A stretch of DNA of 32,703 nt, taken from IMG/VR virus record IMGVR_UViG_3300032334_001134, positions 1-32,703 of that record; one strand, given 5' to 3'. The notes under the pieces are model-generated. The model saw nothing but the letters and a program-made list of their open reading frames with translations, searched no databases and was not told where the DNA came from. The stretch is from a virus. The position numbers and the translations under genes are program-made. Each line of letters opens with the position of its first letter. Position 1 is the first letter of the stretch. Below are positions 6,747 through 29,238 of this stretch, in pieces.

Positions 6747-6989
6747 GTGAATGTGGAACATACTATTTGGAACGCAGTTCTTTCGGTGGGCGTTAGCGTT
6801 GCTGGGTTCTTCCTTAAGAGCATGTATGACGAAATAAAACGCCTTCAAGTACTGATCAACAAGACCCGCGAAGAGATTGCTAAAGAGTATGTGACCAAGA
6901 CACAGCTAGACGCGGATATCAACCGTATCTTTGACCGGCTTGACCGGCTTGAAGCTAAGATTGATCGGTTGATGGAAAAACATGCCTAG
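6747..6989 (+). CDS. Small membrane protein with coiled coil
   Basis: This 80-residue protein starts at GTG 6747, one base after the previous stop; another GTG lies two codons later. Residues about 6-22 (IWNAVLSVGVSVAGFFL) form one hydrophobic membrane-type helix, and residues 26-78 are a charged coiled coil with heptads around IFDRLDRLEAKIDRLMEK. The layout recalls XhlA-like holin-associated proteins and the two small proteins at 18815 and 18970, but this gene lies 12 kb from the lysis cassette. It could be a second lysis component or a membrane-anchored virion protein. Family unassigned. Confidence 0.7.
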   Translation: MNVEHTIWNAVLSVGVSVAGFFLKSMYDEIKRLQVLINKTREEIAKEYVTKTQLDADINRIFDRLDRLEAKIDRLMEKHA

Positions 6990-7389
6990 CAAGAGCAAAA
7001 AGCAGCACTATTTCATGGAAGCTGTGGCTAACAACCCAGCTTTTGCTAGGAAGGCTGATATCCCTCAGTCTGTTGGTAGAGAGTTTGTAGCGGCTGATAA
7101 AGGCCATAAATTTTCAAAAGGTGGTGATGTGAAAAAGAAAATGATGATGCCTATGGGCGCAGCGGCTCCTATGCGTAAACCCATGCCTCCAGCTATGCCT
7201 CCGGGCGGTGGAATGGCTCCTCCGATGCCTCCGGGTGGTGGCGGTGCTCCTCCGATGGGCATGAAAAAGGGTGGATCGGTTAAGAAGATGTCTAGCGGCG
7301 GATCGGCCTCTAGCCGTGCTGATGGTTGCGCCACTAAAGGTAAAACCAAAGGTACACAAGTTAGAATGGCTGGCGGCGGGATGTGTTGA
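6982..7389 (+). CDS. Lys/Gly/Met-Pro-rich phage protein with GCATKG tail
   Basis: This 135-residue protein starts with an 8-base overlap. Residues 1-45 form a conserved-looking domain (KSKKQHYFMEAVANNPAFAR, then IPQSVGREFVAADKG), a start I have seen in many aquatic phage proteins. The middle is low-complexity Met/Pro/Gly (PPAMPPGGGMAPPMPPGGGG) and carries KGG motifs. The last part contains DGCATKGKTKG and ends in AGGGMC. The GCATKG motif recurs in the protein at 10262. The protein is very basic, and no enzyme motif is visible. Function unknown. Confidence 0.72.
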   Translation: MPSKSKKQHYFMEAVANNPAFARKADIPQSVGREFVAADKGHKFSKGGDVKKKMMMPMGAAAPMRKPMPPAMPPGGGMAPPMPPGGGGAPPMGMKKGGSVKKMSSGGSASSRADGCATKGKTKGTQVRMAGGGMC

Positions 7390-7597: not shown

Positions 7598-8727
7598 TGG
7601 GCATGGGATCAGGACTAGGTAATGCGGCGAGTGGCGCGGCGAGGCAGGCTTCTCCCGGCGGGAAAGGTGGATCTAGCGGCGGATATAATCCCGGCGCTGA
7701 GCCTAGTCCGTCTTATAGCGATGGCGCTCCTAGCTCTCCCGGTGGTAAAGGTGGATTAGCTAGTCCAGCACCACAATCACAAAATCAATTTAATTCTCCG
7801 GGCGGCAAAGGTGGTATGCCGTCTCAATTCCCACAAGACAATATAGGCCCCCCTGCGCCACAGCCTAATCCATACCAGCAGCCATACCAGCAGCAGTTCA
7901 TGCCGCCCCCGCAGATGCAGTTCTCGATGCCTCCTCCCGGCTATGGATCACGTGGTCCCAATTTGGGAGGTGGTGGGTATGGCGGTGGATATGGTGGTTT
8001 TAATCCGCAAAATCGGGCGATGACTATGGGGTATGGTCAAAGCCCACAGCAAACTCAGCAGATTTCTAACGCAGTCTACGGCGGTCAAGTCTCGCAACAA
8101 GTCGCTCCCCCTAACTTGACAGCAGCATCCATACAAGACATGGGGCAGCTAGCTCAAAAACTACAACAAATGCAGAACCAACCGCGAAAGTCCGAAGCAG
8201 AATTGCAAGCTATGTCGGACGCAAACGATAGAGCGCAAGCTGAAAGATTTGTAAGCATGTCTCCGCAACAAATGGCGGAATTGCAGCGCGGTGTATTTGA
8301 CGAAAGCGGCATGGGTCGTGGTGCTCCTCCTTTGACGCAAGCCCAATTTACAAACAATCTTCAGCAAGCAGGACTCGGGCAGTTAATGGGCGGTCGGCAG
8401 ATGCGGAACCCATATCAACAACAGAACCCATATCAACAACAGAACCCATATCAACAACAGAACCCATACCAACAGCAGAGATCCCAACAATACTTCAGGC
8501 CGCAGCAGATGCAGCAAGATCCGTACATGAACTACGTACGAAATCAGCAACAAGCGGTGCAGCAGCAAGCGATGCGGTCATCACAACAACAGCAATATCA
8601 AGCGGCGCAGGATCAACAGCAGAGAGCATATCAACAGCAGATGGCACAGCAACGACGGATAGAACAAGAACGATTTGCACCACAACAAATCATGCCAACA
8701 TATGATGCCGGTTCAGGGACTTTCTAA
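7597..8727 (+). CDS. Gln/Pro/Gly-rich low-complexity phage protein
   Basis: This 376-residue protein has three regions. The first 75 residues are Gly/Ser-rich and contain three SPGGKGG repeats. Residues about 80-150 are rich in Pro, Gln, Gly and Tyr. A more ordinary helical segment (about 165-260, with LAQKLQQMQNQPRKSEAELQ and FVSMSPQQMAELQRGVF) precedes a Gln-rich C-terminal third with four tandem NPYQQQ units. It is translation-coupled on both sides by TAATG. Composition suggests an extended or disordered virion protein, perhaps a linker in the tail or neck. No family recognised. Confidence 0.7.
   Translation: MGMGSGLGNAASGAARQASPGGKGGSSGGYNPGAEPSPSYSDGAPSSPGGKGGLASPAPQSQNQFNSPGGKGGMPSQFPQDNIGPPAPQPNPYQQPYQQQFMPPPQMQFSMPPPGYGSRGPNLGGGGYGGGYGGFNPQNRAMTMGYGQSPQQTQQISNAVYGGQVSQQVAPPNLTAASIQDMGQLAQKLQQMQNQPRKSEAELQAMSDANDRAQAERFVSMSPQQMAELQRGVFDESGMGRGAPPLTQAQFTNNLQQAGLGQLMGGRQMRNPYQQQNPYQQQNPYQQQNPYQQQRSQQYFRPQQMQQDPYMNYVRNQQQAVQQQAMRSSQQQQYQAAQDQQQRAYQQQMAQQRRIEQERFAPQQIMPTYDAGSGTF
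8407..8478 (+). repeat. Four tandem 18-base repeats coding NPYQQQ
   Basis: The unit AACCCATATCAACAACAG occurs at 8407, 8425 and 8443 without change and at 8461 with synonymous differences. It lies in frame, so copy-number change would add or remove six residues without a frameshift. Near-identity of three copies suggests recent expansion by replication slippage. Confidence 0.93.
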
Positions 8728-9650
8728 TGGCATACACCACCGGCCTCTCTACGTTTAATCTTGACCTCAATGATCTCATTGAGGAAGCGTACGAGCGCGC
8801 CGGTATAGAGGTTCGCACTGGCTATGAGTTTCGTACAGCACGCCGATCTCTGAACCTACTAACTATTGAGTGGGCTAATAGAGGCAAAAACCTTTGGACG
8901 ATTCAAGAAGGCCAGATTGCCCTGAATACGGGTCAGCTTATCTACCCTTTGCCAGCAGACACAATCGACCTACTAGATCACGTTATTCGTCAAAACACTG
9001 GGTCATCTAGCAATCAAGTTGATATCAACATCACTCGTATTTCAGAGTCTACGTACTCCACGATCCCAAACAAATTAATTCAAGGACGGCCCATTCAAGT
9101 TTGGGTTAATCGTCAGACTGCACAAACAAACGCTACAAGTATCACACTAAGTAGTACAGTTACCAGCACAGCCACAAGCATTACGCTCAGCGACGTATCT
9201 AACCTGACGACCACTGGGTTCATAAAAATTGACTCAGAGACGATTAGTTATACGAACATCGTCGGCAACACCTTGACCAATTGCTGGCGTGGACAGAACA
9301 ACACTACCGCAGCATCTCATACGGCTGGCGCTGCGGTGTACGTACAAAATCTTCCTTGCATCAATGTGTGGCCTTCTCCTAATGCTGGCGGGGATTACAC
9401 TTTTGTATACTGGAGGCTTCGCCGTCTTCAAGATGCTGGGAATGGCGTAAACGTAGAAGATATCCCGTTCCGACTAGTGCCTTGTATGGTGGCTGGGATG
9501 GCGTTCTATATTGCTATGAAACGAACTGACGTTGAGCCTAATCGTGTAGCGATGCTCAAAGATGAATATGAACAGCAGTGGTTGCTTGCTTCACAGGAGG
9601 ATCGTGATAAAGCAGCGGATCGTTTTGTCCCTCGCCAATTGTTCTACTGA
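8727..9650 (+). CDS. Head-tail connector / tail tubular protein A-like adaptor with insertion
   Basis: This 307-residue protein resembles the adaptor proteins that join the portal to the tail in podoviruses (T7 gp11 or P22 gp4 type). Residues 12-60 are a helix pair (LNDLIEEAYERAGIEVRTGY, then ARRSLNLLTIEWANRG) followed by strands ending in IYPLPADTIDLLDHVIR. The C-terminal part (YTFVYWRLRRLQDAGNG, then DIPFRLVPCMVAGMAFYIAM and QEDRDKAADRFVPR) is also typical. Between VNRQ (residue 130) and INVWPSPN (residue 212) sits a Thr/Ser-rich module of about 75 residues containing FIKIDSETISYTNIVGN and NCWRGQNNTTAASHTAGAAV, which I read as an insertion. Coupled to the previous gene by TAATG. Confidence 0.82.
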   Translation: MAYTTGLSTFNLDLNDLIEEAYERAGIEVRTGYEFRTARRSLNLLTIEWANRGKNLWTIQEGQIALNTGQLIYPLPADTIDLLDHVIRQNTGSSSNQVDINITRISESTYSTIPNKLIQGRPIQVWVNRQTAQTNATSITLSSTVTSTATSITLSDVSNLTTTGFIKIDSETISYTNIVGNTLTNCWRGQNNTTAASHTAGAAVYVQNLPCINVWPSPNAGGDYTFVYWRLRRLQDAGNGVNVEDIPFRLVPCMVAGMAFYIAMKRTDVEPNRVAMLKDEYEQQWLLASQEDRDKAADRFVPRQLFY

Positions 9651-10052: not shown

Positions 10053-10262
10053 ATGGCTAAGAGCGATAGCAAAGAAGATACAAAGATGGACAAGGCTCAA
10101 GACAAGGCTATGATCAAAAAAGCCTTCAAGCAGCACGACGCCCAAGAGCACAAGGGTGGAAAAGGCACATCCTTGAAACTCAAGAAGGGTGGTCCAACCA
10201 CGGATGACCGCATGAAGTACGGGAAGAATATGTCTCGTGTCATGAACCAAGGTAAAAAATAA
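10053..10262 (+). CDS. Small Lys-rich phage protein
   Basis: This 69-residue protein follows a strong AAGGAG site. It is extremely basic and polar, with a helical-looking N-terminus (DKAQDKAMIKKAFKQHDAQE), a Gly/Lys middle containing HKGGKG and KLKKGGPTTDDRM, and an end of MNQGKK. The KKGG block matches those of the proteins at 6982, 7391 and 10262. No known function; it may bind nucleic acid or another virion component. Its stop overlaps the next start as TAATG. Confidence 0.7.
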   Translation: MAKSDSKEDTKMDKAQDKAMIKKAFKQHDAQEHKGGKGTSLKLKKGGPTTDDRMKYGKNMSRVMNQGKK

Positions 10263-12319: not shown

Positions 12320-13828
12320 GTGGCTACCGGCTGGGGGGCCAGTACTTGGAGTAGTAATACGTGGGGCGGTTCACAAGACGCCCTAACGGGAACTGCCGCG
12401 TCCGGTTCTGTAAGCGCCCCCGGCGTATCAGTAACAGTAAGTATTAGCGGTGTTTCTGCCTCTGGTTCGGTTGGAACCGTTACTTTTGTTCCGTCAATCG
12501 CCTTAACCGGGGTTTCTGCTTCCGGTTCTGTAGGAACAATTACACACGGTTCGGCCCAATTTGCAATAACCGGGGTAGCAGCCGCTGGCTCCGCCGGTAC
12601 GGTAACTCCATCAAAATCACAAACTGAAACTGGAACAGTTGCTTTTGGTTCGGTTGGTTCAGTTGGGGTTGCCCCGTCTGTATCTTTAAGCGGTACCGTA
12701 GCTTCCGGTTTAGTAGGAGCTGTTTCGACTAGTAGAACGGTCCCATTATCCGGGGCCAGTGGTTCTGGACTTGTTGGCACCGTAGTATTTACCAAGAGCT
12801 TTGCTCTTACGGGGGTATTGGCTCAACCCACTGTTGGTGGAGTTGACCCCGGTCCAAACCCTCAACTATATGAAGTCCACGCTGATGCGCTAGTCAGTAC
12901 GCCTTCTTCATCAAGAACGGTTGGTATTACTGGCAATGCTGCTAGCGGTGCTGTTGGCAACACCCAGTTTGCCCAACCTGTTTTCCCTACCGGAGTATCA
13001 GCCACAGGTTTGGTTGGTTCGGTTACAGTGGGGGACCGGGCACTTGCACTTAGTGGGGTAGCTGCATCTGCGGCGGTTGGCATTGCCTCTGTTCTTAAAG
13101 GCGACTCATTAAGTGGGGTTGCTGCGGCTGGCTCTGTCGGGACGGTGGGGGTTGGCCCTCACATTTTCCCAATTACTAATGTGTCCGCTGCTGGTGCTGT
13201 CGGAACGGTATCCCCATCTATAACGCAGTCTGTATCTGGAGTAACAGCTACTGGCTCAGTTGACACCGTTGGGTTATCTGTTGCGGTTGTGTTATCTGGG
13301 GTTTCCGCTTCCGGCCTAGTTAGTCCGGTAGAGTACACAATACCTGTACCTATAAGTGGAGTAGAAGCCGCTGGAACAGTTGGCACTTTACAAGCAGAAT
13401 TTAGCCAACCGATATCAAGTAGTTCCGCAGAAGGTGTAGTCGGAAATGTAGGACTAAATGTTACCGTCGCCCTAACAGGAGCTACAGCGGCAGGAGAAGC
13501 AGGGACTGCTGTATTTGGGCGTCCAATATCTGGTGTTTTTGCTACTGGGGCTGTACAATCTGTTTCAATTGGGGATCGCCTTGTCGCTATCACTGGTTGT
13601 CCTGCTATGGGCAAAGTGGGCGATCTTGGGTATGCTTATTGGAGTGTAATAAATGATGATCAGACACCGGGATGGTCAAATGTCACTGCGACTGGAAGCC
13701 CAAACTGGACGAGCATCACTACAACCGGAAGCCCAAGCTGGACAAATACTGCCACAACGCAAAGCCCAAGTTGGTCAAGCGTTACCACAACTGAAAATGC
13801 TAACTGGACCGATACGGTAACCGTTTAA
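12320..13828 (+). CDS. Tail-fibre-like protein made of ~20 short repeats
   Basis: The GTG at 12320, preceded by GGTGAAG, gives 502 residues. The N-terminus is Trp/Gly-rich (ATGWGASTWSSNTWGGSQD), as seen at the start of some phage fibre proteins. Residues about 22-440 contain about 20 imperfect copies of a unit with core LSGVSASGSVGTV, spaced about 20-25 residues apart; one longer spacer near residue 175 (PGPNPQLYEVHADAL) interrupts the series. The last 55 residues are five copies of an 11-residue unit with PSWTxxTTT character. The repeats have alternating small and hydrophobic residues and probably form a beta solenoid or a string of beta hairpins, giving a long rod. Host binding is inferred from position among fibre genes. 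Confidence 0.78.
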   Translation: MATGWGASTWSSNTWGGSQDALTGTAASGSVSAPGVSVTVSISGVSASGSVGTVTFVPSIALTGVSASGSVGTITHGSAQFAITGVAAAGSAGTVTPSKSQTETGTVAFGSVGSVGVAPSVSLSGTVASGLVGAVSTSRTVPLSGASGSGLVGTVVFTKSFALTGVLAQPTVGGVDPGPNPQLYEVHADALVSTPSSSRTVGITGNAASGAVGNTQFAQPVFPTGVSATGLVGSVTVGDRALALSGVAASAAVGIASVLKGDSLSGVAAAGSVGTVGVGPHIFPITNVSAAGAVGTVSPSITQSVSGVTATGSVDTVGLSVAVVLSGVSASGLVSPVEYTIPVPISGVEAAGTVGTLQAEFSQPISSSSAEGVVGNVGLNVTVALTGATAAGEAGTAVFGRPISGVFATGAVQSVSIGDRLVAITGCPAMGKVGDLGYAYWSVINDDQTPGWSNVTATGSPNWTSITTTGSPSWTNTATTQSPSWSSVTTTENANWTDTVTV

Positions 13829-19787: not shown

Positions 19788-20224
19788 TGGATCTCATTGG
19801 TATAGGGTCAATAATTGAAGGCGTGGGCAAGGTCGCGGGCGACCTCATCACAACGGATAAAGAACGCCTTCAAATGGCGTTGGAAGATCGCAAGCTCGAC
19901 CTTGAGGAAAAGCGCATCGACCAGACTACAGACCTCGCGCAAGTGGATGTCAATAAGATTGAAGCGGCGAGTAGTAGCCTATTTGTCTCTGGCTGGCGTC
20001 CTGCTGTGGGCTGGGTTGGGGTGCTTGGCTTGGCTTATCAATTCCTTGGATACCCCCTAATGCAGTGGTGTTGGGCTTTTGGTCAAGGTTATGACATAAT
20101 CCCTAAAGGGTTGAACCCTCCGCCAGATCTGGACGTTGAGCAACTCATGACACTACTAGCTGGACTGTTGGGGTTCGGCGGTATGCGCTCATTCGAGAAG
20201 CACAAAGGTGTAGCGAGCAAATAA
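19787..20224 (+). CDS. Holin, GTA 3TM-type
   Basis: This 145-residue protein has the layout of the GTA_holin_3TM family. An N-terminal region (residues 1-65) contains a charged helix (ERLQMALEDRKLDLEEKRID). Next comes the hallmark SGWRPAVGWVGVLGLAYQFL (residues 68-87), and near the end a second hydrophobic helix, LMTLLAGLLGFGGMRSFEK. Holins form the membrane lesion that lets the endolysin reach the cell wall. Direct coupling to the endolysin by TAATG supports this. Helix count by eye is two clear and one possible. Confidence 0.87.
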   Translation: MDLIGIGSIIEGVGKVAGDLITTDKERLQMALEDRKLDLEEKRIDQTTDLAQVDVNKIEAASSSLFVSGWRPAVGWVGVLGLAYQFLGYPLMQWCWAFGQGYDIIPKGLNPPPDLDVEQLMTLLAGLLGFGGMRSFEKHKGVASK

Positions 20225-22353
20225 TGCCACTCAAAAAGCTGCTGTTTAAACCGGGAGTTAACCGCGAAAACACGCGATACACTAACGAAGGCGGTTATTA
20301 CGAGTCAGAAAAAATTCGATTTCGCCAAGGTACGCCTGAAAAACTTGGTGGCTGGCTACAAATTTCGGGTAGTACATTTTTAGGTATTTGCCGGTCGCTC
20401 TGGTCTTGGGTGACGCTTGCTGCGCAAAACCTGATGGGTGTTGGAACAAATCTGAAGTTTTATATTCAGAATGGTGGGGCGTACTACGACATCAATCCTA
20501 TCCGTAAGACCAACACGCTTACTAACCCTTTTGCTACGTCAACAGCCAGCAATTCTGGTGGCAACACGACGATAACAATCACTGATAATAATCACGGCGC
20601 TACAAATAATACGTATATAAATATCTATTACCCCGGCGCGGCCCCAACATTTGGCGGCGTAACTATTCCTACGGGGGAATACATAATTACGTATCTGACG
20701 CCTAACACTTATAGTATTACTCTTGCAGGAACTGCGTCTTCAAATACTACTGGGGGCGGCACGGTTTATATTTCGTATCAGGTTAATTCAGGTCCAGAAT
20801 ACGAAGTGCCACTTACTGGGTGGAGTGCTGGCGCATGGGGTGCTGGGACTTGGGGTATTGGTGGCACTTCCGCTGTTGGCCTACAAATTTGGAATCAGAT
20901 TAATTACGGAGAAAACTTGCTATACGGCCCCCGTGGAGCTGGGTTGTATTATTGGAACGCAAACCTTGGTTATCAAAATAATCCGTTTACAGTTACTATT
21001 GCCCGTCCCGCTGTTCTTACGCTGGGGTACGCATTAATAGACGGCACAGCCGTGACATTAACAACTACGGGTTATTTACCTACGGGACTTATTCCGGGTA
21101 CGGTTTATTACGTTATTAATACTAGTGGTGTTACATGTAATTTAGCACTTACCGCTGGCGGCACAGCGATTAACACTACTGGTTCACAGTCTGGCACACA
21201 ATCAATTTCTCCACGTGGGATTCCGCTCTCAAGTCTTGCTAGTTCTGATGGGTACGCACCACTCTACCAAAATTCATTTACTGTAGCAGACGTTAGTAAA
21301 AATATCATAGTGTTTGGGACAAACGACTACAGTAGTACGACTCTTGATCCTATGTTGATTCGTTGGTCAGATTCGTCACAACAATCAGACGCATATCCGT
21401 TGCTTGTTTGGTACCCAGCTATTGGTAATGAAGCTGGATTTTTGCGTTTGTCCCACGGTTCTAGAATCATTACGTATGTACAAAGTAGACAAGAAATTGT
21501 AGTATTTACTGATTCATCCGTGTATTCAATGGTGTATACCGGTGGAACGTACGTCTTTAATATTCAATTAATAGGCGATAATATTTCTATCGCTAGCCCA
21601 AACGCCGCAGTCATTGCTTCTGGCGTTACGTACTGGATGGGCGTAGATAAATTTTACAAATATGATGGTCGGGTACAAACGCTTAGCTGCGACCTACGAC
21701 AGTACGTATTTGAAAACATAAATAAAACTCAATTAGAACAAGTTTTCTGTAGCACTAACGAAGGCTTCAACGAGGTTTGGTGGTTTTATTGTACGGGAAC
21801 GAGCAACACAATAACCAACTATGTTGTCTACAATTATTTAGAAAATGTCTGGTATTACGGCACTATGGCCCGTACCGCTTGGATTGATAGTGGACTAAAT
21901 AATTACCCAATCGCCGCCACGTACTCTAATAATTTGGTTTGGCATGAAAACGGTGTAAACGATTGTACTGATTCGGTTACCGGAGTGCCAATTGATTCCT
22001 ATATTCTGTCGTCTGAATTTGATATTGACGACGGGCACAACTTTGGGTTTGTGTGGCGCATGTTACCTGACCTCAAATTCGATGGGTCTACTGCTACGTC
22101 TCCGCAAGTCACAATGACTCTGTACCCCATGCAGAACTCAGGTTCGGGTTACAACTCTCCTTTGTCTGTCGGCGGTAACGCTTACGCTACGTCCACCCGT
22201 ACTTCAACGTATCCAATCGAAGCGTACACAGGGCAAATCTATACTCGCGTGCGTGGTCGCCAGATGGCATTCAAAATTGAAGGCAATCAGCTTGGGCTGC
22301 AATGGCAGCTTGGCTCTCCTCGAATTGATATCCGCAATGATGGGCGGCGTTGA
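20224..22353 (+). CDS. Large tail / DNA-stabilisation protein (P22 gp10 or T7 gp12-like)
   Basis: This 709-residue protein begins MPLKKLLFKPGVNRENTRYT and continues NEGGYYESEKIRFRQGTPEK, a start I associate with packaged-DNA stabilisation or tail tubular proteins of podoviruses. The C-terminal two thirds carry recurring Trp/Tyr-rich strands (VTYWMGVDKFYKYDGRVQTL, NEVWWFYCTG and YNYLENVWYYGTMART) that suggest a beta-propeller-like platform. Residues about 100-190 and 262-327 are Thr/Gly-rich additions, the second with TTTGYLPTGLIPGTVYYVIN, a module found in many phage proteins. It follows the holin by TAATG. P22 gp10 or T7 gp12 equivalents close the tail tube, the likely role here. Confidence 0.8.
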   Translation: MPLKKLLFKPGVNRENTRYTNEGGYYESEKIRFRQGTPEKLGGWLQISGSTFLGICRSLWSWVTLAAQNLMGVGTNLKFYIQNGGAYYDINPIRKTNTLTNPFATSTASNSGGNTTITITDNNHGATNNTYINIYYPGAAPTFGGVTIPTGEYIITYLTPNTYSITLAGTASSNTTGGGTVYISYQVNSGPEYEVPLTGWSAGAWGAGTWGIGGTSAVGLQIWNQINYGENLLYGPRGAGLYYWNANLGYQNNPFTVTIARPAVLTLGYALIDGTAVTLTTTGYLPTGLIPGTVYYVINTSGVTCNLALTAGGTAINTTGSQSGTQSISPRGIPLSSLASSDGYAPLYQNSFTVADVSKNIIVFGTNDYSSTTLDPMLIRWSDSSQQSDAYPLLVWYPAIGNEAGFLRLSHGSRIITYVQSRQEIVVFTDSSVYSMVYTGGTYVFNIQLIGDNISIASPNAAVIASGVTYWMGVDKFYKYDGRVQTLSCDLRQYVFENINKTQLEQVFCSTNEGFNEVWWFYCTGTSNTITNYVVYNYLENVWYYGTMARTAWIDSGLNNYPIAATYSNNLVWHENGVNDCTDSVTGVPIDSYILSSEFDIDDGHNFGFVWRMLPDLKFDGSTATSPQVTMTLYPMQNSGSGYNSPLSVGGNAYATSTRTSTYPIEAYTGQIYTRVRGRQMAFKIEGNQLGLQWQLGSPRIDIRNDGRR

Positions 22354-22682: not shown

Positions 22683-23005
22683 AACAAATTGATCCAAACT
22701 ACATCGAGTTTGCCGAGGTAGACGACATCTGGGTGCGGGCGTATAGCGTAGCCAAGGCTAATACTGTCATGGCCCAGCATACACATACTCACGATCACAT
22801 TACGTTGATATCTAGCGGATCAATCGAAGCGTGGCAGGACGGTAAAAGTATTGGTATATTTGAAGCGCCATCTATTGTTAAAATATCTGCTGGCAAAAAA
22901 CACGCATTTGTAGCACTTACGGACAACGTAGTGCTTTGTTGTTTACACAATCTTCGCGGCACAGGGCTGGAACAGCCAGAAATCAAAGAGGCTCAATTAT
23001 GTTGA
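22679..23005 (+). CDS. Cupin-fold protein
   Basis: I choose the ATG at 22679 (ATGA overlap), giving 108 residues beginning MKQIDPNYIEFAEVDDIWVR. The middle matches a cupin: motif 1 is AQHTHTHDHITLISSGSIEA with four His (34, 36, 38, 40) that could bind a metal, and motif 2 is APSIVKISAGKKHAFVAL with P64 and H75. Cupins are small beta barrels with very varied functions, including enzymes, sensors and structural proteins. Here it lies among tail and ejection genes. It could act on a metabolite or surface sugar, or be a virion component. The fold call is good and the function unknown. Confidence 0.77.
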   Translation: MKQIDPNYIEFAEVDDIWVRAYSVAKANTVMAQHTHTHDHITLISSGSIEAWQDGKSIGIFEAPSIVKISAGKKHAFVALTDNVVLCCLHNLRGTGLEQPEIKEAQLC

Positions 23006-24912
23006 TGTGGTTAACTGTAGAGGCCGGAGCTGAGTTAGCCGCCGCCGAAGCCGCCGCCGCCACTGCCGCTGCCGCTGAAACTGCTGCCGCTACTACCGCT
23101 GCCGCTACTGCTGCTGCTCAGACCGCTGCTGCTCAGACTGCTGCTACTGCTGGATCTGGGATTATGTCTGCCGCCCCTACAGCCGCCGCTGCTGTCGGAC
23201 CAGAAAGTGCTATGGCAGCACAAGCCGCACAAGGTGGGATGGGCGCAGCTTCAGGTATACCCCCCGGAGGACTAGAACAATTAACTCAAGGTACGCTGCA
23301 AGCTCCACCCGCAGGATTGGAACAACTAAACACGGCTGGGCGAAGTTTAAATGTTGAGGCGCTTCAAGGTCCTGTCTCACCAGCACCTCCTCCTGACTCT
23401 GCTAGGTTTATACCACCTCCCGAGGCAAATCTCTCAGCCGCCCAACACGCGGCGGGAACGGGGACACTTTCTCCTGTCGCCCCTCCTTCTCCTCCTCCTC
23501 CCGGTATTCCTGCCGCCGCGCCTCCCCCTGCCTCGCCTTCTCCTGACCCGTACGCTCTATCTAAACCCCCCGTTCCTAGTTCTCCTAGTCCTTATACGTC
23601 TGGTATAGGTGACACATATAATCTTACTAAACCTTCCGTAGAAGTTAATTTTGCAAACCAGTATGCTGCTAACGCCGGTAGGGGAACTCTTTCGGGTATG
23701 GCTGAAGCAGCGGCAGCACCAGCACAACCTACTTCTGCGTTTATGCGGGGTTTAGATAGTGCGATGGAATTTATTGATAAATATCCTAAGACTTCGGCTG
23801 TTGGTGCTTATCTAGGGGCAAGTGCTTTAGGACTGCTCAATCCAAATCGTGGTAACTTCAATAGTGCGCCGTACGACGGTCCGTTGAGCAAATACAAACT
23901 TTCACCTAATTTTAAAGCTAGCGACGCTAACCCTGCCGCTTATCGCTATACCCCCCGCTACGCTGAAGGCGGCATCATGCAGATGGCTCAAGGGGGCGTT
24001 ACGGGCAGTGGAAATCTGACTTTGAATGTACCTCTGGATCTAGGTGGGGGACAGAACGGCGGGCAATCGACCCCAGACTTTGCATTTGGCAACGGAAATC
24101 CGGGGGCAAACACCGGATTCTTTGGTCAGAACAGTACTCAGGTCAACGCGCCGTCAAACCCACAAGGGCCAACCAACTCTTTCATGACTCAACAGGCAGG
24201 TACTCCTGACCTGATGCAATCATTTCAGCAACTTAAACCTGAAACTCAATCGAACCCCATCAACGTAGGTGGGCCAGCCGACGTTAGTCAAAATCAACCG
24301 CAAAAGTTCGCTAGTGGCGGGTCGACGGGTAACCTATCCAGTACTTTGGACTACTACACCAAGATGATGGAGGGCGAAGCGCCTAAGATCCCAGCCCAGC
24401 ATCCTGAAGGCGTAGGCATATATCACGATACTGACCCGGATACACGTAGTCTTGATCCGTACTCTGCGGCTAGGACTCGTTTAGCCAAAACCAATAAACG
24501 TGCTTACATGACGGCCCCAAAAGGTCCCGAACCATACGTGGGTGGACAATTAAATTTTAGTCCACCCGGAGGTAAACCTGACACTACCCAATACCAAGAA
24601 GCAGCAAAGGGCGGTATCATGGGGCTTAGCGATCTTGGGGGGTATGCTGCTGGTGGAAACCCACGTTTGCTAAAAGGACCGGGGGATGGAATGTCGGATA
24701 ATATACCGGCAACCATCAATGGACGCCAACCGGCTCGATTAGCTGACGGGGAATTTGTGATCCCTGCCGATGTGGTCTCCCATCTTGGGAACGGATCAAC
24801 AGAAGCTGGGGCTAAAGTGCTTCACCAGATGATGACTAAAGTGCGGCAAGAGCGCACCGGTAATCCCAAACAAGGTAAACAAATCAACCCACGTAAGTAC
24901 ATGCCGCGATGA
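22999..24912 (+). CDS. Ala/Pro-rich virion-like protein with LADGEFVIPADVVSHLG module
   Basis: I choose ATG 22999, overlapping the cupin stop by 7 bases, giving 638 residues; the open frame reaches back to 22936. Residues about 10-52 are an almost pure Ala helix with regular Thr. Residues about 130-210 are Pro/Ser-rich, a segment near 255-290 looks ordinary (SAFMRGLDSAMEFIDKYPKT), and later parts hold GGIM motifs (AEGGIMQMAQGGV, AKGGIMGLSDLGG). The C-terminus has GPGDGMSDNIPATINGRQPA then RLADGEFVIPADVVSHLGNG, a module I associate with many aquatic phage proteins. Position before GNAT-like and giant proteins suggests a virion or ejection protein. Function unknown. Confidence 0.75.
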   Translation: MLMWLTVEAGAELAAAEAAAATAAAAETAAATTAAATAAAQTAAAQTAATAGSGIMSAAPTAAAAVGPESAMAAQAAQGGMGAASGIPPGGLEQLTQGTLQAPPAGLEQLNTAGRSLNVEALQGPVSPAPPPDSARFIPPPEANLSAAQHAAGTGTLSPVAPPSPPPPGIPAAAPPPASPSPDPYALSKPPVPSSPSPYTSGIGDTYNLTKPSVEVNFANQYAANAGRGTLSGMAEAAAAPAQPTSAFMRGLDSAMEFIDKYPKTSAVGAYLGASALGLLNPNRGNFNSAPYDGPLSKYKLSPNFKASDANPAAYRYTPRYAEGGIMQMAQGGVTGSGNLTLNVPLDLGGGQNGGQSTPDFAFGNGNPGANTGFFGQNSTQVNAPSNPQGPTNSFMTQQAGTPDLMQSFQQLKPETQSNPINVGGPADVSQNQPQKFASGGSTGNLSSTLDYYTKMMEGEAPKIPAQHPEGVGIYHDTDPDTRSLDPYSAARTRLAKTNKRAYMTAPKGPEPYVGGQLNFSPPGGKPDTTQYQEAAKGGIMGLSDLGGYAAGGNPRLLKGPGDGMSDNIPATINGRQPARLADGEFVIPADVVSHLGNGSTEAGAKVLHQMMTKVRQERTGNPKQGKQINPRKYMPR

Positions 24913-25340
24913 TTCAAGTATCAATGGTCCCTAGAGAGTTAATCGATACGTGCTGGGATAAAGTTGGGCCATTCCTTGATCGAGCAGCCAGATACACGTA
25001 TGGTAGATACACCGTAGACGATATTTACAACGCAGTAGTCGACTACGATCACGACTTATGGGTTGCGTTTGAGGATAACGAGATCAAAGGCGCAGTGGTC
25101 ACGAATTTCATGCACTACCCAAAACGAAAAGTTTTATCTATGACTTTCTGTGGTGGCGTAGAACTGAGTAAATGGAAAGATCCTATGCTGGATTTGCTAC
25201 GGCGATACGCTAAAGACATGGGATGTGACGGGATCGAGGCCACCGCTCGTCGCGGTTGGGCTAAAATATTTCAAAATGACGGGCATAAAAGCCTGTGGGC
25301 AACATTTGAACTGCCCCTCGAAGGAGTAAATCATGGGTAA
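24909..25340 (+). CDS. GNAT acetyltransferase-like protein (T7 gp13-like position)
   Basis: This 143-residue protein has the length and pattern of a GNAT fold: an N-terminal helix (RELIDTCWDKVGPFLDRAAR), central strands (DHDLWVAFEDNEIKGAVVTN then KRKVLSMTFCGGVEL), a helix (PMLDLLRRYAKDMGCDGIEA) and a C-terminal part with RRGWAKIFQNDGHKS. The acetyl-CoA loop normally seen as Q/RxxGxG/A is not clear, so catalysis is doubtful. T7 gp13, encoded before the large internal virion proteins, has a similar length and is also GNAT-like; this gene precedes the large Gln/Ala-rich proteins. It starts on ATGA and overlaps the next gene by 8 bases. Confidence 0.74.
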   Translation: MIQVSMVPRELIDTCWDKVGPFLDRAARYTYGRYTVDDIYNAVVDYDHDLWVAFEDNEIKGAVVTNFMHYPKRKVLSMTFCGGVELSKWKDPMLDLLRRYAKDMGCDGIEATARRGWAKIFQNDGHKSLWATFELPLEGVNHG

Positions 25341-28300
25341 GGGCGGCGGTGGCGGTGGACAAACTAGCTCGACGGTAACGAATACCAATATCCCCGAATA
25401 TGCGCGTGGCTATGTAGAAAACATGCTGATGGGGACTCAGCGTCAGTTATTTACTGGCAATGAGGGGGAAGGCGGCGCATTTGACATTACAGGGTTCAAA
25501 CCCTACAAAGCATACGGTGGGACGTACGATCAATCGGGGAACATGACCTCGTATGATCCTAGCGCATCAGTCGCTGGGTTCACGCCAATGCAGCAGATGG
25601 CGCAGAACGGTATTTACAATATGCAAATGCCGGGGCAATTTAATGCTGCTAGTGGGTACACCGCTGACGCGATGCGGCGCGCCTCCAACGCTGGATATGG
25701 TCCTAGCCAATTTACTATGGAGCGAGCGCAGGCTCCCGGCTTAAATTATTTCCAGATGGACCAGCCCCAAGATGTTGCTGGGGAACAGGCTGGTAGAGTT
25801 AGACTTGCTGCGGCACCGCAAGCCCGCGCTGCTTATATGCAAGCGGCGCAAATGGACGCGTCTCCAGAAATGGCAGCGGCGGCGGCAAACCAAACTCAAT
25901 TAGCTCAAGCCGCTAGGATGCGTTCTGAACAAGCTGGAATTACCCAACTTGGTCAAGCTAATACATACCAAGGTCAACAGCTTAATTACAAACCACAAGA
26001 TGTTGGGTATGACAGAGTAAACGCGCCCAATCTTCGTGACTTGCAAATGCAAGGCGCAGCTAACGTCGGTACTCAATCATTTACTCAGCCGGGTGCCGCG
26101 CAATCATATATGTCTCCCTACATGCAGAATGTGGTGGACATCCAGCAACGCGAAGCACAACGCCAAGCAGATATTGCGGCAACCAGACGAAGCACAGGTC
26201 TTGCTCAAGCTGGAGCTTTTGGCGGGGGGCGTCATGCAATCGAAAACGCAGAAGCTGCTCGTAACTTAGCTACCCAAAAAGGGGATATCCAAGCCCAAGG
26301 ACAACAAGCCGCTTTTCAAGCAGCGCAAGGTCAATTTAATACTGAACAACAAGCGGCGCTTAACGCAGCGTTGGCTAACCAACAAGTTCAGCAACAGACG
26401 GGTGTTCAGAATCTTAGTGCTGCTCTGCAAACTCAAGGTCTTGGCGCACAAACCGGATTGACCGCACAGCAGTTGAACCAAGCCGCTGGGATGCAGACTG
26501 GGCAGTTTAATCAGCAACAAGGTTATAACACTGCTTTACAAAACGCCCAATTAGCGCAACAGCAACAACTTGCTAATCAATCATTGCAAGGACAGTATGG
26601 CTTACAACAAGGCCAGATGAACCAAGCAGTTTCTCTGCAAAACGCTGCACAACGTCAAGCAGCTAATGCGGCCAATCAAGGTGCATTGAACCAATTCGGG
26701 TTGCAGCAAGGGCAAATGGATCAGGCCACTGCCCTCCAGAATGCTCAGATGCGGCAGCAAGCGGCGGCTAATAATCAACAATACGCTGCCCAATATGGTT
26801 TACAAGGCGGGCAATTTAGGCAAGCTGCCAACGCCGCTAATCAACAAGCAGCTAATCAAATTGCGTTGGCTAACCAGCAGATGACTGGACAGTATGGTCT
26901 GACTCAAGGTCAGATGGACGCAGCGCGTAATCAGTTCAACGCTCAACAGCGCCAAGCAGCCAATCTTGCTAATCAGCAGATGGCCTTCAATACAGGTAGC
27001 CAAAATCTCCAAGCGGGTCTTGGAGTGCAGCAGCTTGGTGCTGGGCAAGATTTACAGTCTCAGCTAGCAAACCAACAGATGAGGCTTAACACCCAGCAAG
27101 CTGGGGAACAGTCTCGTCAATTTGGTGCTAATTACGGTCAACAAATGAACGCTCAGCAACTTGCTGCGGCGCAACAATTGGCTGGTATAGGAGGGCAACA
27201 GCTAACAGCCCAGCAAGGAATCTACGGACTTCAGAATCAGTACGGTGGTCAACAACAGCAAATGCAGCAGCAGATTATTAATCAGGCTATGCAGGACTAC
27301 TCTAACGCACAGCAGTATCCGCTGATGCAGTTGGGTACGATGTCCAACATGCTGCGTGGTCTGCCGATGCAAGCTTCTACCACCAATATGTATCAGGCCG
27401 CGCCTAATGCCATCACTCAAGGTATCGGTGCGGTCGGTGCTTACGGTGCGTTGAATAATGCGTTTGGTGCTCCCACTGGCGGGGCTGGTGGAGCCAGACC
27501 TTATAAAGAAGGTGGTGCTATTCGTGGTGGCATCATGTCCTACGATGTGGGCGGTGAGATCGAAAGCACGCTCAGCAAAATGGGCGTCGATGACCTCAAG
27601 AGATACGCAAAAGAATCTTCTAGTCCATCAATTAAACAGATGGCTGCGCGTCTGATCCAAGAGAAATCGATGCCAGTTCCTCGCATGGCGCGAGGCGGTA
27701 TCCTTGCGTTTGCTAAATCTACTGAAGAAAACAATCGGAGCCTAGTAAAAGAGCTTAGAGAAGCAAGCGAAGAAGGTCTGGCTAGTCCGGATGAGTTAAC
27801 TGCTACGGACGTTCAATATGCCCCCAATAAAGGGTTTGGAGGGGCGCTCACTAAGCTGTTGGCGGATCGCCACGCAGAGTCTTTTGGAACAAGGCCCACA
27901 ACTTCTGCCTCACCACCGGAACCACCACCTCCGCCTCCGCCTTCTCCTTTTGCTGCTGGGCCAGATGTTAATCCTCAAGACGTTAGATTAGCTAACGCTA
28001 GGTCACCAGCGCCGCCTGCTCCACCTGCTCCCCCACCACAGGGTATCGCTCAAGCCGCAGCCGCTACTGCTCCTCCTCGTCCACCTGCTGCTCCACGCCC
28101 TTCTGCGCCTCCGGCCCCTCCTCCTTCCGCTGGTATTAGCGCGCCTTCATATCCCAATAGGCCAGAAATACCAGACACCCCAGAACATGCCGCTTATAGA
28201 GCACAGGCAGCAGCGGCTAACGCCAACGCAAATAAAACCGTAGCGCAGCATTTGGAAGATATAAAAGCCGAACAGGTAGCGGCTGGCCTTGAACCCGAAA

Positions 28301-29238
28301 ACAAAGCGATACAAGACTATCGCGCTAGGATGATGGCTGAACGTGCCAATATGGACGACGAAGCCAAGCGCCAAAAGAATCTTCGCCTTGCTGAGTTCTT
28401 TGCAAGCTGGGGTTCAACTCCCGGCGCTACGCTTGTGGCGGGTATGACTGCACTCAAAAAGACTATTCCTACGTTGATCGAAGACGAGAAGGAACGCAAA
28501 AAAGCCACACGTGAAGCGGATAAGATTATCTATGAGCTTGATCAGGCCGTCAGGCTTGAGAAGAAAGGCGACATTAATGCTGCCACAGATAGGAAGCAAA
28601 ACGCCGCTAAAATTGCTGAGCCGTATAACTCAACCTTGGCAAAACTTTCCCAAGAAAAGACTACCGCAGCTATTAATGCGCAAGGAGATATGGCGAGGTT
28701 TGCGTCATCGACCTTTAATACTGAATCGACAAGACAAACGCATTTGGACACCACTAGAATGTCTAATGAAAGCGCTGAAAAGATAGCGCGTATTAAAGCT
28801 AGCGCAGATTTGGCGGCGGTTAGAGAAGCCGCTAAAGCTAGAGAAACTGGGAAAATAGGCACTTTGTATCAAGGCGCTTTAGAGTTAGTTCGCCATACAC
28901 AAGCTGATATAGATAATCGTAGAAAAACTGACCCCTCTTACGTCATGGCTTTGCGTATAGCAAATGCTCCAGAGCCTTCAAACACTAAAGACAAAGCGGC
29001 ATACGAAAAAGCCAAACAAGATGTTGTGGATTGGGAAACGGAGCAGGCAAAGAGATTAGTTTTACCTATGGCCCGAGTAGAAGCTTTGGGTAGAGAATTG
29101 AGCGGATCGGCACCTGCTTCCACAGATACTCCCACTACAATGACTAGAGCAGACGTTGAAAGAGTGGCTAAAGAACGCAATAAAACTGTAGCAGAAGTAG
29201 AAGCGGCGGCGAAAGCCAAAGGCATCACGATCAGATAA
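25333..29238 (+). CDS. Large Gln/Ala-rich virion / probable ejection protein
   Basis: This 1301-residue protein follows AAGGAG and begins MGKGGGGGGQTSSTVTNTNI. Residues 15-150 are Tyr/Gly/Met-rich and less repetitive. About 150-700 are Gln/Ala/Asn-rich, with at least four tandem units near 420-555 that share YGLQQGQM. Then come GGIM (about 732) and GGIL (about 785) motifs, a Pro-rich linker (about 857-936) and a helical C-terminal part (MMAERANMDDEAKRQKNLRL, AEFFASWGSTPGATLVAGMT). It ends TRADVERVAKERNKTVAEVE plus a short tail. Large helical Gln/Ala-rich proteins after a gp13-like gene recall T7 gp14-gp16, the core proteins ejected into the host. No enzyme domain recognised. Confidence 0.76.
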   Translation: MGKGGGGGGQTSSTVTNTNIPEYARGYVENMLMGTQRQLFTGNEGEGGAFDITGFKPYKAYGGTYDQSGNMTSYDPSASVAGFTPMQQMAQNGIYNMQMPGQFNAASGYTADAMRRASNAGYGPSQFTMERAQAPGLNYFQMDQPQDVAGEQAGRVRLAAAPQARAAYMQAAQMDASPEMAAAAANQTQLAQAARMRSEQAGITQLGQANTYQGQQLNYKPQDVGYDRVNAPNLRDLQMQGAANVGTQSFTQPGAAQSYMSPYMQNVVDIQQREAQRQADIAATRRSTGLAQAGAFGGGRHAIENAEAARNLATQKGDIQAQGQQAAFQAAQGQFNTEQQAALNAALANQQVQQQTGVQNLSAALQTQGLGAQTGLTAQQLNQAAGMQTGQFNQQQGYNTALQNAQLAQQQQLANQSLQGQYGLQQGQMNQAVSLQNAAQRQAANAANQGALNQFGLQQGQMDQATALQNAQMRQQAAANNQQYAAQYGLQGGQFRQAANAANQQAANQIALANQQMTGQYGLTQGQMDAARNQFNAQQRQAANLANQQMAFNTGSQNLQAGLGVQQLGAGQDLQSQLANQQMRLNTQQAGEQSRQFGANYGQQMNAQQLAAAQQLAGIGGQQLTAQQGIYGLQNQYGGQQQQMQQQIINQAMQDYSNAQQYPLMQLGTMSNMLRGLPMQASTTNMYQAAPNAITQGIGAVGAYGALNNAFGAPTGGAGGARPYKEGGAIRGGIMSYDVGGEIESTLSKMGVDDLKRYAKESSSPSIKQMAARLIQEKSMPVPRMARGGILAFAKSTEENNRSLVKELREASEEGLASPDELTATDVQYAPNKGFGGALTKLLADRHAESFGTRPTTSASPPEPPPPPPPSPFAAGPDVNPQDVRLANARSPAPPAPPAPPPQGIAQAAAATAPPRPPAAPRPSAPPAPPPSAGISAPSYPNRPEIPDTPEHAAYRAQAAAANANANKTVAQHLEDIKAEQVAAGLEPENKAIQDYRARMMAERANMDDEAKRQKNLRLAEFFASWGSTPGATLVAGMTALKKTIPTLIEDEKERKKATREADKIIYELDQAVRLEKKGDINAATDRKQNAAKIAEPYNSTLAKLSQEKTTAAINAQGDMARFASSTFNTESTRQTHLDTTRMSNESAEKIARIKASADLAAVREAAKARETGKIGTLYQGALELVRHTQADIDNRRKTDPSYVMALRIANAPEPSNTKDKAAYEKAKQDVVDWETEQAKRLVLPMARVEALGRELSGSAPASTDTPTTMTRADVERVAKERNKTVAEVEAAAKAKGITIR
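26590..27000 (+). repeat. Tandem ~34-residue Gln/Ala repeats in the 1301-residue protein
   Basis: At least four units share a YGLQQGQMNQA-type core (FGLQQGQMDQA, YGLQGGQFRQA and YGLTQGQMDAA in the others), each followed by Ala/Asn/Gln-rich residues such as RQAANAANQQ. Spacing is about 33-35 residues. The surrounding region has looser versions of the same pattern. Confidence 0.8.

Follow-up and report, generated by a model that had tools for sequence, protein, structure and literature searches.

Two large proteins encoded on a linear 32.7-kb IMG/VR contig (the window, i.e. the whole stretch of DNA analysed here) share a short motif, [MYFA]-A-x-GG-[ILMV], which is usually followed by a second GG exactly 8 residues on and whose invariant part is A-x-GG-hydrophobic. 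A repeated GG element had been noted in a preliminary description of this DNA; the observation is confirmed, and is stronger than first stated. The two proteins, P0001 and P0002, appear to be ejection (pilot) proteins, and the phage is probably short-tailed. We are largely confident that the motif represents a tape-measure-type element in ejection-type proteins. The complete explanation, in which P0001 and P0002 are ejection proteins and the GG motif is a tape-measure-type docking element in their linkers, is given slightly less than an even chance. The GG motif is already known in the tape-measure proteins of long-tailed phages, where its role is unexplained; a full-text literature search with partial coverage found no paper naming or explaining it.

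Table 1. Genes, domains and motif sites in the window.
Feature	Position	Strand	Description
P0001	22999..24912	+	637 aa, ejection-type: Ala-rich start, mostly disordered, tape-measure-type C-terminal module
Motif site 1	23959..24000	+	YAEGGIMQMAQGGV, P0001 residues 321-334, GG-to-GG spacing 8
Motif site 2	24601..24657	+	AAKGGIMGLSDLGGYAAGG, P0001 residues 535-553, immediately N-terminal of the C-terminal module
Tape-measure-type C-terminal module of P0001	24634..24909	+	LGGY..GG..LLKGPGDGMSDNIPA..ARLADGEFVIPADVVSHLGNGS...
P0003	24909..25340	+	143 aa, conserved gene separating P0001 and P0002; homologues in the same place in ~38 loci
P0002	25333..29238	+	1301 aa, fusion of Gln-rich B (~1-740) and B2 (~741-1301)
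Motif site 3	27505..27561	+	KEGGAIRGGIMSYDVGGEI, P0002 residues 725-743, at the B/B2 fusion point
Small helical domain	27553..27669	+	P0002 residues 741-779, between sites 3 and 4; AlphaFold2 block with pLDDT 77-91
Motif site 4	27685..27714	+	MARGGILAFA, P0002 residues 785-794
Long helical region	28180..29100	+	P0002 residues 950-1256; AlphaFold2 helices, pLDDT mostly 70-97
P0004	29247..32702	+	Start of a giant protein downstream, in the position of T7 gp16; without the motif

All four GG sites quoted in the preliminary description are present, and both proteins are read without ambiguity. P0001 contains AEGGIMQMA (residues 322-330, GG at 324-325) and AKGGIMGLS (residues 536-544, GG at 538-539), and P0002 contains IRGGIMSYD (residues 730-738, GG at 732-733) and ARGGILAFA (residues 786-794, GG at 788-789). 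Additional GG elements occur at P0001 332-333 and P0002 727-728, and the later second GG that had been described is seen about 8 residues on in three of the four quoted sites. Of the core first proposed, [small/basic]-GG-I-[M/L], the GG followed by a hydrophobic residue stands, whereas the small or basic residue before GG is not conserved and the M or L after I is lineage-specific.

The AlphaFold2 model of P0001 has a mean pLDDT of 54.8, with an Ala-rich N-terminal helix (residues 2-46) and otherwise short helices only (247-276, 446-457 and 487-501). The sites had been placed in linker-like regions, and around the sites of both proteins pLDDT is indeed below 50; predicted disorder covers residues 528-559 around site 2 of P0001, and roughly residues 712-740 and 782-837 of P0002. 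The absence of a fixed position among homologues had been named as a possible refutation, but the motif sites keep their place in the P0001 and P0002 families, as judged from conservation statistics that ignore phylogeny except, in part, in the comparison of motifs within and between genomes described below. At site 1, A322 is kept in 84% of the P0001 family, GG324/325 in 80/77% and GG332/333 in 95/93% (letters present); at site 2, GG538/539 are found in 95/86% and A536 in 79% of 85 distinct homologues. Information per column reaches 2.12 bits at site 1 and 2.79 bits at site 2, compared with 0.94 bits in the disordered residues 340-440 of P0001. The sites in the second half of P0002 rank among its best-conserved residues. 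Among 34 homologues of this half, GG727/728 (100%) and GG732/733 (93/100%) are kept at site 3, and A786 (94%), GG788/789 (100%), I (82%), [IV] (82%), A792 (91%) and F793 (97%) at site 4. Mean information per column is 3.17 bits for site 3 and 3.34 bits for site 4; the mean over all columns is 1.68, that of the adjacent linker 1.34 and that of the long helical domain 1.84.

Enrichment of the motif was assessed in approximately 90 related contigs, whose ORFs were divided into four groups (P0001-like, or A; P0002-like, or B; the gene following B; all others), with dipeptide-preserving shuffles as the baseline. In P0001 alone, A-x-GG-[ILM]-x(3,9)-GG is observed 3 times versus 0.06 expected, a count reached in 0 of 1000 dipeptide shuffles. 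Motif counts in P0002 alone are not significant (A-x-GG-[ILMV], 1 versus 0.76 expected from dipeptide shuffles), and thus the significance of the motif in this protein rests on its homologues and not on its own counts. Over the ~90 contigs, [MYFA]A.GG[ILM] is enriched 9.6-fold in P0001-like proteins, 8.3-fold in P0002-like proteins and 8.8-fold in the next gene, and A.GG[ILM]...GG 21-fold, 10-fold and 26-fold, respectively; within each family these counts come from related sequences, are not independent and are inflated by common descent. Counts across families are not inflated in this way, because P0001-like and P0002-like proteins have no detectable similarity: there are no cross hits between the two families, in line with the original statement that the two motif proteins differ. 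In the upstream virion genes (476 proteins) the same patterns occur at 1.4-fold and, with the following GG, 1.2-fold, i.e. without enrichment, and the next large gene, two after B, has a motif count of 0 in these contigs. Nor is the motif present in portal, capsid or tail genes. Only three gene families, which lie side by side, carry it: the P0001-like proteins, the P0002-like proteins and the muralytic protein (B2) that in the window forms part of P0002. The spacing between GG-hydrophobic and the following GG shows a peak at exactly 8 in P0001-like proteins (65 versus 7.3 expected), P0002-like proteins (36 versus 4.2) and B2 or the next gene (31 versus 1.9), and this peak is absent in upstream genes (6 versus 7.8).

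A DNA pattern encoding M-A-x-G-G-I-V-A-F was also searched in IMG/VR, using the same residues in reverse order as a control. The forward pattern matched at least 120 viral contigs, every match lying in the reading frame of an ORF of 150 aa or more, and the reversed pattern matched 1 contig. The motif thus recurs in many environmental phages, as had been suggested for aquatic phage virion proteins, but it is not confined to them, since FAxGG also occurs in records of cultured phages, over 1,300 of them. That the sites reflect chance or a glycine-rich composition is highly improbable. The plain form GG[ILMV][ILMVAFS] is not significant in P0001 and P0002 alone (P 0.10-0.52), as such an origin would predict, but positional conservation speaks against it, and for the refined motif it is ruled out by the family-wide enrichment together with the reversed-order control. 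Enrichment over composition controls, the lack of which had been the other possible refutation, is therefore present. It is also quite unlikely that the sites serve only as flexible spacers, rich in glycine, by which domains could unfold and be threaded through the channel. Their location in predicted disordered linkers, with glycine common nearby, would suit such spacers; however, conservation at the hydrophobic and Ala/Phe positions comes close to that of the glycines, and neither the spacing of 8 nor the contrast between forward and reversed patterns is expected of a spacer.

P0002 unites two proteins, B and B2, in a natural fusion; in many relatives they are encoded by separate genes. In these split relatives, B stops near site 3 and as a rule has an xGG element at its C-terminus and a GLADLAIYNM-like end; the domain border on which site 3 of the window lies is thus, in those relatives, a border between genes. 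Split-off B2 proteins consist of a helical domain, LPxPNMQ-MAxGGIVAFADGGEV, a muralytic domain (in 9/27: 8 SLT and 1 glucosaminidase) and further helices, and site 4 corresponds to the B2 motif directly upstream of the SLT or glucosaminidase domain where this is present. A Pfam scan of P0001, P0002 and P0004 of the window gave no muralytic domain match. Eleven P0002-like proteins (in loci L014, L024, L031, L039, L041, L043, L049, L056, L058, L081 and L082) start with an N-terminal tag, M-x-(S)YSRRxLYAxGEPLGDSATR...GRxxYGGGG. In L014 (5813-7045, 7428-9221) a tag of this type also begins the P0001-like protein, and the tag resembles a targeting or assembly signal common to two different proteins. 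The window's own proteins do not have it.

The arrangement of B and B2 bears on the main rival to docking, namely that a protease cleaves at the GG sites, either as the particle assembles or at ejection, freeing muralytic or C-terminal parts. We regard this as live, though disfavoured and rather unlikely. Site 3 coincides exactly with the point at which relatives encode B and B2 as separate genes, site 4 directly precedes the muralytic domain of relatives, and lambda and T5 both process their tape measures close to the C-terminus, the T5 cut separating a muralytic domain from the rest (PMC10038345); it is by this analogy only that peptides ending at GG, as suggested earlier, might be expected in P0001 and P0002. 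The T5 cut, however, is made after R1127 and not after GG. Proteolysis predicts placement at domain borders, but not that stand-alone B usually keeps a GG element in its last 20-40 residues, where no cut is needed, nor the conserved downstream I-[IV]-A-F, which a simple GG site leaves unexplained. The adenovirus protease recognises [MIL]-x-GG, with M, I or L at P4. Here P4 is A in 84% (site 1), 79% (site 2) and 94% (site 4) of sequences, which does not fit an adenovirus-type site.

The link to tape measures comes from the C-terminal module of P0001 (GPGDGMSDNIPA...ARLADGEFVIPADVV), which matches tape-measure PHROGs (up to 12/49 members) and, in tblastn, tape-measure genes of cultured phages. 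Aligned by HHalign with the corresponding module of siphophage tape measures, it gives a probability of 97.5% (E 7.7e-12), and still 96.5 when the GG element is left out, compared with at most 1.1% in 30 column-shuffled controls; as the tape measures were preselected as module-bearing, these values speak to homology of the module and not to its frequency. On this evidence the module is homologous to siphophage tape-measure C-termini. The GG element precedes the module in tape measures too, e.g. PGFADGGMVPGFADGGRISGPGTGRSDSI in R26L. FAxGG plus a module of this type is found in 1367/50,697 phage records, which, among the matches listed, are mostly annotated as tape measure, and a search with FADGGVVTKP...GEAGPEAIMPL yielded 666 records, again mostly tape measures. 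A divergent form occurs in lambda gpH (residues 734-785, FATGGFTGTGG...HRGEFVFTKEA...YATGG), with a pairwise HHalign value of only 42%. A 36-aa motif consensus gave only matches with E > 1 against cultured phages, one tape measure among them. Nothing significant was found for the C-terminal module or P0003 among solved structures, and a Foldseek search of the P0001 and P0002 models against BFVD returned only proteins of uncultured phages, with low TM-scores. Of 84,980 bacterial and archaeal genomes, six contigs encode a relative of the P0001 module, none of them from a named isolate; this rarity fits uncultured, mostly non-integrating phages.

Several relatives of P0001 or of its module have other annotations. 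The P0001 relatives in OQ594354.1 and OL906435.1 (hits H1 and H2) are called “calcium-binding protein” and “extracellular solute-binding protein”, and 13/49 members of the “endolysin” family phrog_971 match the module; all three names look mistaken. In L040, L053 and L057 the P0001-type module is found in two adjacent genes each, which suggests duplication. Pelagibacter phage HTVC103P gp79 (L094:5927-7222, 432 aa) combines several ATGGLM/AGGGLL elements with a tape-measure-type GPGTGTSDSIPALLSDGEFV module, and its gene lies between the portal and capsid genes, an unusual place for such a module.

The best-supported reading of the motif is a short linear element of ~8-12 residues, often doubled with an 8-residue repeat, in disordered inter-domain linkers. 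Its high conservation in a segment that AlphaFold2 leaves without a fold of its own points to a short binding motif. Of the functions considered, docking is the likeliest, and we put it forward tentatively. Each GG element would form a short beta-strand or hairpin upon docking, and all would bind the same partner in the delivery channel, which might be the portal, adaptor, nozzle or another ejection protein. Docking would hold several different, otherwise unfolded proteins extended and threadable in the particle, and these would be let go upon DNA release. A common partner is suggested by the presence of the motif in unrelated proteins of one virion, by its conserved hydrophobic residues, and by the resemblance of copies within a genome: motifs of P0001-like and P0002-like proteins are more alike within a genome than across genomes (P 0.0002, and P 0.012 after removal of close relatives, which takes away shared ancestry only in part).

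Addition of a strand is suggested by the GG-flanked hydrophobic residues and by two precedents. In 80alpha, a sheet formed with the tail completion protein gains strands from the N-termini of the tape-measure protein (PMC11661146), and in R4C the tape-measure C-terminus is a predicted triple beta-helix (PMC10276861). No strand is formed at the motif sites in the AlphaFold2 models of P0001 and P0002. Alternatively, the element might be membrane-active or channel-forming and insert into the host membrane after ejection. It has a short hydrophobic core flanked by GG, and membranes are indeed a site of action of tape measures and ejection proteins (PMC13190303, PMC8954989), but a core of 4-6 residues is too short for a membrane span, and we find this distinctly unlikely. 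A broader version of the docking proposal, which we consider doubtful, is that FAxGG-I might be a general address or docking signal for the channel through which phages deliver their DNA. Tape measures of long-tailed phages and a number of unrelated ejection proteins within a single short-tailed virion would then share it, and a single conserved partner in the channel would recognise it.

Ejection proteins are hard to find by homology (P0001 and P0002 themselves have no Pfam or PHROG match), and the motif offers a testable sequence handle on them; at 8 residues it could aid the annotation of ejection genes in environmental phage contigs. A module common to both protein types links the ejection proteins of short-tailed phages with tape measures. 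It would set an ejection or docking role of the tape-measure C-terminus apart from length measuring, for which short-tailed phages would have no need.

The assignment of P0001 and P0002 as ejection proteins is based on gene order, an SU10-type adaptor gene and the muralytic domains in relatives, and the short-tailed morphology is likewise read from gene content. The genes are ordered as a stabilization-type protein, P0001 (A), P0003, P0002 (B/B2) and the giant protein. Among the genes scanned in the window, which is a fragment, the upstream 20224-22353 product matches phrog_3287 (virion structural protein) and the 8727-9650 product matches SU10_adaptor. Elsewhere in the window, 12320-13828 encodes a 502-aa product with many degenerate VSASGSVGTV-like repeats ~20-30 residues apart; 6982-7389 and 10053-10262 encode small basic proteins rich in KGG/SGG runs, the N-terminus of the former matching PHROG virion structural proteins; and a small ORF beside the portal gene (1952-2299) resembles, by eye, a GroES-type co-chaperonin.

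The ejection genes of T7 (gp13-gp16), P22 (gp7/gp20/gp16) and SU10 (gp19-gp24) are, like those of the window, located after the tail and connector genes in a run of 3-5 that ends in a giant protein. As for a muralytic domain in one member of such a set, it is seen here in relatives, in 9/27 split-off B2 proteins. The ejection proteins of T7, P22 and SU10 lack the [FYM]A-x-GG-[ILM] motif and have no detectable sequence similarity to the motif proteins (best blastp E 0.78), so that the assignment does not imply membership by sequence, and the motif is not needed for podophage ejection in general. Equating P0003 with T7 gp13 is unsupported (HHalign of the P0003 family versus T7 gp13, 0.9%).

Three proteins of named phages have the C-terminal module of P0001 in a similar gene neighbourhood: gp065c of Caulobacter phage GB2A (“tail length tape measure”), WJZ48115 of phage DSL-LC04 and WEV89209 of Synechococcus phage MinM2. 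All are named by annotation only, and the MinM2 protein is annotated as a calcium-binding protein. In lambda, the far C-terminal helix of gpH (residues 818-842) is located in the tail tip (PMC10721106), and in T5 the C-terminal piece of the cut tape measure remains there (PMC10038345). The tape measures of siphophages (e.g. Dinoroseobacter phage R26L, Mycobacterium and Gordonia phages, D3112) have a C-terminal FAxGG..GPGTGxSDSIPA..SNGEYV, and as in P0001 the repeated FAxGG directly precedes the GPG-G-SD-IPA...GEfV module. Unlike these tape measures, P0001 is predicted by AlphaFold2 to be mostly disordered, without a long coiled-coil rod, and the scanned genes of its genome resemble those of short-tailed phages. 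In further contrast to tape-measure phages, the motif is here also present in two further proteins that are unrelated to tape measures.
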